This document shows, piece after piece, positions 37,844 to 38,988 of a stretch of DNA of 64,000 nt. Position 1 is the stretch's first letter. Each line of letters opens with the position of its first letter. The DNA is taken from positions 2,294,001 through 2,358,000 of the forward strand of contig NZ_CP035493.1 of NCBI RefSeq assembly GCF_004135385.1. Reading direction: 5' to 3'. The notes beneath the pieces are model-generated. The model did not search any database and had not been told where the DNA came from. It worked only from the letters and a program-made list of their open reading frames with translations. The DNA comes from Xylanimonas protaetiae. GTDB taxonomy: Bacteria > Actinomycetota > Actinomycetes > Actinomycetales > Cellulomonadaceae. The position numbers were made by a program, and so were the translations under genes.

Positions 37844-37871
37844 CGGCTGACGCCGGAGGCGGCGTCAGCCG
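37844..37871. terminator. Hairpin between convergent reductase and binding-protein genes
   Basis: An 11-bp perfect stem (cggctgacgcc / ggcgtcagccg) with a 6-nt loop overlaps the stop codon of the minus-strand binding-protein gene. It could end transcripts from both sides. Confidence 0.6.
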
Positions 37872-38887
37872 AGCGCCCCGTCCGAGCTGAACACCAGGCC
37901 CAGCGTGATCGCGCCCTGGCGCAGGGCCTCCTTGGTGAGCGGGCCGCCCGCGTCCAGGGACCTGAACTCGCTGAACGTCAGCCCGTAGACGTCCTCGAGG
38001 CCCGGCTGGCAGAAGGGCCGCTCGGTGCACTCGGGCCCCGCCCCGAGGATCAGGCCGTCGCACGCGGCGGCGAGGTCCGTCAGGGTCGTGACGTGGTGCT
38101 CGTCGGCGAAGGCCTTCGTCACTGCGAACGCGTTCTGGTCCTGGGCGGCGGACGGCGTGCCGAACACGAGCCCCGTGGCCTGGCCGAGCTGCGTCAGGGC
38201 CGCGACCGTCCCGTCGAGGTCGCCGCTCGCCACCGGTGTGGCGTCCGCGCCGTTCTGGCCCTTGTTGAGGAACTCGGCCAGCGTGCCGACGTACTCGGGC
38301 ACCACCTGGATCTGCGAGCCGTCCTCGAGCGCGGGCAGGTACGCCTCGCGGTTGCCGATCGTGGTGACCGTCGCGTCGTACCCGGCCGACGTGAGCACCT
38401 CGGCGTAGATGGTGCCGAGCGTCTTCGACTCGGCGAAATCCGCGGCGCCGATCGCGATCGGCCTGCCCGCCCCGGCGGAGGCGTCCGCGGCGGCGAGGCC
38501 CTCGTCGGCGACGAACTGGGCCGCGACGTCCTCGGACGACTTCCGGTCGACGTCGACGGCCTTGTTGAGCGCGACGAGCTTGTCGGTGTCGAGCGCAGCC
38601 GACACCGTGTCGAGCAGCGGCACCAGCCCCGGGTCCGCGGCCGCCGTGGCGGCGTTCACGGCCGGGACGATGTTGTCGACCGTCTGGAGGTGCTGGTCGT
38701 CGGCGAGGACGACGAGGTCGTTGCCAGGCACCGGGGCGCACGACGCCGCGACCGCGCCGGACGCCGAGCCGGTGTCGGACGGGCTCCCAGAGGACGACCC
38801 GGGCGAGCCGCACGCGCCGAGCACGAGCAGCACCCCCGCGGCGAGCGCGAGACGGGGCAGGGGACGGGACGTGCGAGTGCGGTACAT
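37865..38887 (-). CDS. Osmoprotectant ABC binding lipoprotein, circularly permuted
   Basis: This 340-residue glycine betaine/choline-type (OpuAC fold) binding protein has a lipoprotein signal with lipobox LGAC at 23–26. The usual domain order is swapped. Residues 57–131 (DLVVLADDQHLQTVDNIVPA..., LNKAVDVDRKSSEDVAAQFV) match the normal C-terminal segment, while residues 143–340 start with the normal N-terminus (IAIGAADFAESKTLGTIYAE) and end at ITLGLVFSSDGALG, where the normal protein would continue into DLVVL. A Ala/Gly-rich linker (132–142) joins them. Ligand-loop features such as GNREAYLPAL and VPEYVGTL are kept. GGAGAG lies 6 nt before the ATG. The cognate permease genes follow upstream on the same strand. 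Confidence 0.82.
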   Translation of the reverse strand: MYRTRTSRPLPRLALAAGVLLVLGACGSPGSSSGSPSDTGSASGAVAASCAPVPGNDLVVLADDQHLQTVDNIVPAVNAATAAADPGLVPLLDTVSAALDTDKLVALNKAVDVDRKSSEDVAAQFVADEGLAAADASAGAGRPIAIGAADFAESKTLGTIYAEVLTSAGYDATVTTIGNREAYLPALEDGSQIQVVPEYVGTLAEFLNKGQNGADATPVASGDLDGTVAALTQLGQATGLVFGTPSAAQDQNAFAVTKAFADEHHVTTLTDLAAACDGLILGAGPECTERPFCQPGLEDVYGLTFSEFRSLDAGGPLTKEALRQGAITLGLVFSSDGALG

Positions 38888-38988
38888 CGTGCTCTCCAGG
38901 GTCGTGGCCGGGTGGAGCTCGTCGGGCATTCCGTGCCATTCGACCGCAGACCTCTGACACCGGCAACCCTCCGCAGGTCAGGTGCGGT

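Follow-up and report, generated by a model that had tools for sequence, protein, structure and literature searches.

Natural circular permutations often come to light only when very distant proteins are compared, in which case the event itself is untraceable. Among glycine betaine-binding proteins, permutation has been reported from structures, with circular permutation described as linking OpuAC of Bacillus subtilis, ProX of Escherichia coli (1R9L), and ProX of Archaeoglobus fulgidus (1SW1) (PMC2395249). In proteins of subcluster F-III (AfProX, OpuBC, OpuCC, and EgtU), aromatic residues are described as caging the quaternary ammonium (PMC9732360). Here, we describe a permuted binding lipoprotein encoded in a 64,000-nucleotide stretch of the Xylanimonas protaetiae genome (hereafter, the window), for which permuted and unpermuted versions are close relatives found with the same permeases, and whose wider family contains several cut points.

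Gene structure and transporter context

The binding lipoprotein gene lies on the minus strand of the window at 37865..38887, running from an ATG at 38887 to a stop codon ending at 37865 (a longer frame from an ATG at 38929 is likewise open), and encodes 340 amino acids, of which 315, counted from the lipid cysteine, form the mature part. These coordinates and this frame agree with the first-pass annotation. A signal peptide is predicted by sequence motif only at 38813..38887, with the lipobox LGA/C at its end and the lipid cysteine codon at 38810-38812. We divided the remainder of the chain into four segments, with N and T forming lobe I and M1 and M2 forming lobe II, so that the order in the window protein is T-N-M1-M2 (all on the minus strand). 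Segment T (38495..38719; PF04069 positions 186-256, 1sw1 residues 200-274) is usually the C-terminal part of lobe I and here comes first. It is followed by the linker AAADASAGAGR (38462..38494) between the old C- and N-termini, and by segment N (38150..38461), usually the N-terminal part of lobe I, which corresponds to PF04069 positions 2-185 jointly with M1 and M2. Segments M1 (38060..38149) and M2 (37868..38059) are the first and second parts of lobe II; M1 ends in Cys251 (codon 38060-38062), while M2 carries Cys262 and Cys268, which occur family-wide, and the new C-terminus. Cys251 and Cys25 (mature numbering; 38738..38740), which directly precedes the new first strand, make up a co-occurring cysteine pair. 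The earlier proposal that a C-terminal segment had moved to the front holds, as does that of an Ala/Gly-rich linker joining the old ends, although the moved segment starts 31 residues past the lipid cysteine rather than right after the lipobox.

The gene adjoins two permease genes and an ATPase gene, as expected of an ABC importer. Permease 2 (PF00528; 38989..39657, start codon inferred) and permease 1 (PF00528; 39654..40319) share the minus strand with the binding protein, while the ABC ATPase (PF00005; 40345..41253, start codon inferred) is encoded divergently on the plus strand. The loci of 26 relatives with the window order (L003-L028) have permease 1, permease 2, and binding protein in this order on one strand, except for L009, where the permeases lie on the opposite strand to the window-order gene, and L010, with no permease in the flank examined. 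Wherever an ATPase gene was found in these loci (23/26; not found in L007, L009, and L010), it was on the opposite strand. The divergent L058 differs in having its ATPase gene on the same strand as the binding protein, and no permease could be identified within the stretch examined. Most relatives have a few hundred bases between permease 2 and the window-order gene, and four loci (L007, L015, L019, and L026) have approximately 1.2-1.8 kb of other sequence there. The order permease 1, permease 2, and binding protein is likewise found around unpermuted relatives (L056, L057, L059, L060, and L062), and hence the permutation probably happened in place, within an existing transporter locus. The preceding permease and the unpermuted binding protein of L060 share one open frame, and may be fused.

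Evidence for a swapped domain order

A search of the whole 3.86 Mb genome with the OpuAC domain profile (PF04069) gave two matches only, both within the binding lipoprotein gene and in swapped order. Profile positions 2-185 matched window positions 37865-38461 (E = 1.3e-25), and profile positions 186-256 matched 38507-38722 (E = 4.2e-12), upstream of the former match on the coding strand. At the protein level, the two stretches scored 136.5 bits against PF04069 (curated cut-off 21.2). Combined, they span profile positions 2-256 of 257, and, as this is nearly the whole OpuAC domain, it is neither truncated nor duplicated. An alignment with A. fulgidus ProX (1sw1) likewise consisted of two swapped stretches (query 141-327 with chain 6-185, and query 56-131 with chain 200-274). 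The window protein lacks the usual linear order of PF04069; order is no Pfam criterion, and the protein stays a member of this family, as a permuted one. Every segment is present once, the old termini are joined, and the new termini lie elsewhere, as is characteristic of natural circular permutants. Two findings that would speak against permutation were not made: by both PF04069 and 1sw1, what stands at the N-terminus is the C-terminal segment of OpuAC rather than an unrelated domain, and no second copy of segment T was found in the gene or, using PF04069, in the genome.

Predicted structure and ligand site

An AlphaFold2 model based on 15 permuted rows alone was good for lobe I and poor for lobe II (mean pLDDT 68.9), and was set aside for a model based on 142 rows (pLDDT 94.9, pTM 0.88), for which unpermuted proteins and those of another permuted order (type 3, described below) were entered as contiguous pieces. 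Because the equivalence of the pieces is built into this alignment, the model agrees with a permuted fold, but is no blind proof of one. Parts of the model match solved family members in a shifted register: the first ~200 residues of unpermuted solved proteins correspond to model residues ~115-315 with Z scores of about 12-14 (e.g., 3mam, Z = 13.8, rmsd 2.0 over 189 residues). Structure prediction and comparison with ProX-type folds, proposed earlier as a check, thus gave a confident model and a piecewise match to solved relatives. Among the best 50 entries from the Foldseek top 1,000 chains, alignment with VIA identified no chain spanning the window order in one run.

The short linker joins the old C- and N-termini, and, based on the segment order and modelled fold, the new termini open at the second inter-lobe crossover. 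A cut at this return crossing from lobe II to lobe I makes each lobe one continuous stretch, so that lobe I (T and N) and lobe II (M1 and M2) would be connected by one crossing instead of two. With the new segment order, the lipid anchor leads into the hinge strand and not into the first strand of segment N. The lobes would presumably still close on the ligand between them, and the protein would presumably dock on the same permease pair as its unpermuted relatives.

The likely role predicted for the protein is ligand capture for an OpuC/OsmF-like importer. Against the NCBIfam OsmF model (NF049931), it scored 72.8 bits, below the cut-off of 400, a score that is lowered by the split match. The AfProX cage positions, which we take to be Tyr63, Tyr190, Tyr111, and Tyr214, align with Tyr174, Phe308, Asn227, and Val45 in the window protein, such that, by alignment only, an aromatic residue is kept at just two of the four positions. 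At these positions, Tyr, Phe, Asn, and Ala occur in the nearest unpermuted sisters, indicating that the change in the site is older than the permutation. Given this incomplete F-III-type aromatic cage, the ligand may not be glycine betaine, and a betaine ligand is considered doubtful for the window protein.

Distribution of the window order and other linear orders

The window order is common within a group of Actinobacteria. Fifteen mature relatives can be aligned over their whole length in this order. Using a profile of these 15 permuted proteins and counting continuous matches by hand, we found the order in 135 of the 200 family genomes sampled (window genome included), and in one further gene cut by a contig end. 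At class level, 17 of 394 genomes had it, among them the window genome and that of the divergent L058 (1 of 35 genomes in the L058 family). A phylum sample, overlapping with that of the class, had it in 2 of 396 genomes. Beyond the window's phylum, coverage consisted of a plasmid collection and a genome contig scan restricted to close relatives; the scan yielded 26 relatives. The question raised by the first-pass annotation, whether relatives share the order, is hence answered positively for both family and class. Genera with the window order include Isoptericola, Promicromonospora, Myceligenerans, Xylanimonas, Krasilnikoviella, Sediminihabitans, Luteimicrobium, and Cellulomonas, and the order was also found in two Frankiales assemblies. 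None of the 277 plasmid records with a match covered 80% of the query in one place. A Mycobacterium ulcerans plasmid record (H20) has one continuous match to window residues 32-251 (32.9% identity), which, judging by its range, is as expected for the type 3 order.

In the wider family, the same circle of segments is linearised in at least four ways. Among 159 open reading frames (ORFs) with a scored segment pattern, a tally in which overlapping loci of one gene were counted more than once, 84 had the window order (T-N-M1-M2), 50 had the normal order (N-M1-M2-T; a further nine lacked a scored M1), 10 had the order M2-T-N-M1 (type 3; a further two lacked a scored M1), two were cut inside M2 (type 4; L085 and L077), and one was truncated (L167). 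The two type 4 proteins have the later half of M2 first and the earlier half last, and these halves are different parts of M2 rather than copies. A distant relative (L133), scored for T-N, looks like type 4 by eye. Pfam matches vary with the order; for example, the match of L088 (type 3) starts at profile position 115, the second half of L085 (type 4) corresponds to positions 2-145, and L056 (normal) is matched in one run. The linker from T to N comprises 9-11 residues in every window-order ORF (84/84, a number that again includes overlapping loci), and 8-12 residues in all 15 ORFs of types 3 and 4. Twelve loci with the type 3 order are from other classes of the phylum (L088, L090, L091, L094, L126-L132, and L134), and two of L129-L132 are without a scored M1. 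In G373:C223 and G186:C1, profile positions 246-314 or 248-314 were matched upstream of positions 23-250, which suggests that a family within the window's own class also has the type 3 order. No duplication intermediate, with the tail segment at both ends, was present among the 159 scored ORFs, and a search of 501 translated flanking pieces beside window-order genes for relics of lost copies gave nothing convincing (best E = 0.87).

Origins of the permutation and the cysteine pair

Mis-assembly, a frameshift, or an unrelated domain ahead of a truncated binding protein could each give the appearance of a swapped order. Such an artefact is extremely improbable here, and was rejected, as the gene is a single open frame, segment T alone is a significant PF04069 match, and the same order recurs in many genomes (135/200 within the family). 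Both halves of the protein are intact, as noted in the first-pass annotation, and the swapped PF04069 pieces, nearly full domain, and recurrent order demonstrate that the binding lipoprotein is a natural circular permutation, and not a truncation or an error. The number of times the window order arose was addressed with a tree of 98 rows rotated to one register, which left out L061 (cut short), L132 (cut at the end of a contig), two rows that repeat the window gene (L001 and L002), and near-copies identified by shared 4-mers. Of the 48 window-order rows, 47 grouped in a single clade (SH-aLRT 96) embedded among unpermuted proteins. The remaining row, L058, was placed outside this clade on a long branch among unpermuted rows, both in this tree and in a second tree of 95 rows (without L066, L133, and L034), and thus did not move when another long row was omitted. 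Separate origins in the main clade and the L058 lineage would account for this placement, and would be in keeping with repeated permutation in the wider family, where a single origin for the 11 type 3 rows was rejected (AU P = 0.0017). Nonetheless, we consider two origins of the window order unlikely: L058 is a long branch, uniting all 48 window-order rows costs 1.24 log units and was not rejected (AU P = 0.477), and L058 possesses the same cysteine pair as the main clade. As the trees are quick ones and the branches long, the event count is provisional.

The mature window protein has five cysteines, comprising the lipid-carrying one, Cys25, Cys251, Cys262, and Cys268. Cys262 and Cys268 do not vary among the 15 permuted proteins, and 13 of the 14 unpermuted proteins compared also have them (all but L095). 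The count for Cys25 and Cys251 took identical domains once and used ORFs in which T, N, and the start of M2 were all scored, which left out L133. Of the 60 unique window-order proteins, 58 had both cysteines, and the other two, which are from Frankiales, had neither. No equivalent of either cysteine was found in 56 unpermuted proteins, nor was the pair found in 13 proteins of types 3 and 4 (a cysteine in the first scanned interval of the type 3 protein L128 falls inside its own M2 end, which is not an equivalent place). The two Frankiales proteins branch first in the main clade, and hence the permutation probably preceded the cysteine pair. These observations suggest, although they do not prove, that a Cys25-Cys251 disulfide remakes the lost inter-lobe link; such a bond would fasten the arm at the new N-terminus to lobe II, thereby restoring a second link between the lobes. 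On the tree, however, the pair (scored on the first cysteine) changes only twice, and so its co-occurrence rests on few events. The permutation could thus be real, with both extra cysteines unbonded and simply co-inherited in one lineage without a permutation-linked role, which would also agree with L024 and L028 being permuted yet lacking the pair. This seems rather improbable to us, as none of the 60 unique window-order proteins has just one of the two cysteines, the divergent L058 has both, and isolated DSSP bridge residues in the model (24 and 252) adjoin Cys25 and Cys251. Residues 224 and 243 are isolated bridge residues too, and so residue 24 need not pair with 252. Overall, we are confident in viewing the window protein as the ligand-capturing lipoprotein of an OpuC/OsmF-like ABC importer, naturally permuted and with a probable Cys25-Cys251 disulfide. 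The frequency of the order in a group of Actinobacteria, the further permutations in the family, and the probable disulfide at the new N-terminus extend the first-pass annotation.

Comparison with known systems

Among the matches listed in searches of the open-access literature, one precedent for permutation in these proteins was identified (PMC2395249), and a subscription paper may exist. The available portions of PMC9732360 and PMC3688454 do not treat natural permutation of these proteins. Neither the window order, nor close permuted and unpermuted relatives as a set, several orders in one family, or the Cys25/Cys251 pair were found in these searches. On balance, we lean slightly towards a broader interpretation, whereby the family is a permutation hot spot whose closed chain was cut at four places, with some orders arising repeatedly, and a disulfide gained in the window lineage replaces the severed crossover. 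If true, this would represent a natural case of a disulfide replacing a backbone link after permutation. The family makes it possible to test how permutation affects folding, hinge motion, membrane tethering, and docking, along with possible compensation for the cut crossover by a disulfide. Domain scans show such permuted proteins as two fragments.

Among the best 50 entries, the top VIA alignment to the window model was with the glycine betaine-binding OpuAC of B. subtilis (2B4L and 2B4M), a distant relative (2b4l against model residues 20-249: Z = 16.6, 195 residues, rmsd 4.6, 16% identity). Its cut differs from that in the window protein, as the sequential alignment covers T-N-M1 of the model and ends at residue 249, and, judging from the alignment ranges, B. 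subtilis OpuAC appears to have the type 3 order (M2-T-N-M1). ProX of A. fulgidus (1SW1 and 3MAM), YehZ/OsmF (4WEP), EgtU (7TXK), and OpuBC (3R6U) share the segments and modelled fold of the window protein, but have the normal order (N-M1-M2-T) with two crossovers; 3mam is also matched over its full length by a profile of the unpermuted sisters (A3, E = 2.1e-44). The closest comparison is with the unpermuted actinobacterial sisters themselves (L055, L056, L057, L059, and L060), which are 44-58% identical to the window protein in aligned pieces (48-58% for L056, L057, L059, and L060, which adjoin the same two permeases). These sisters share Cys262, Cys268, and equivalent Tyr, Asp, Asn, and Arg positions with the window protein, and differ from it in having the normal order and no Cys25/Cys251 pair.
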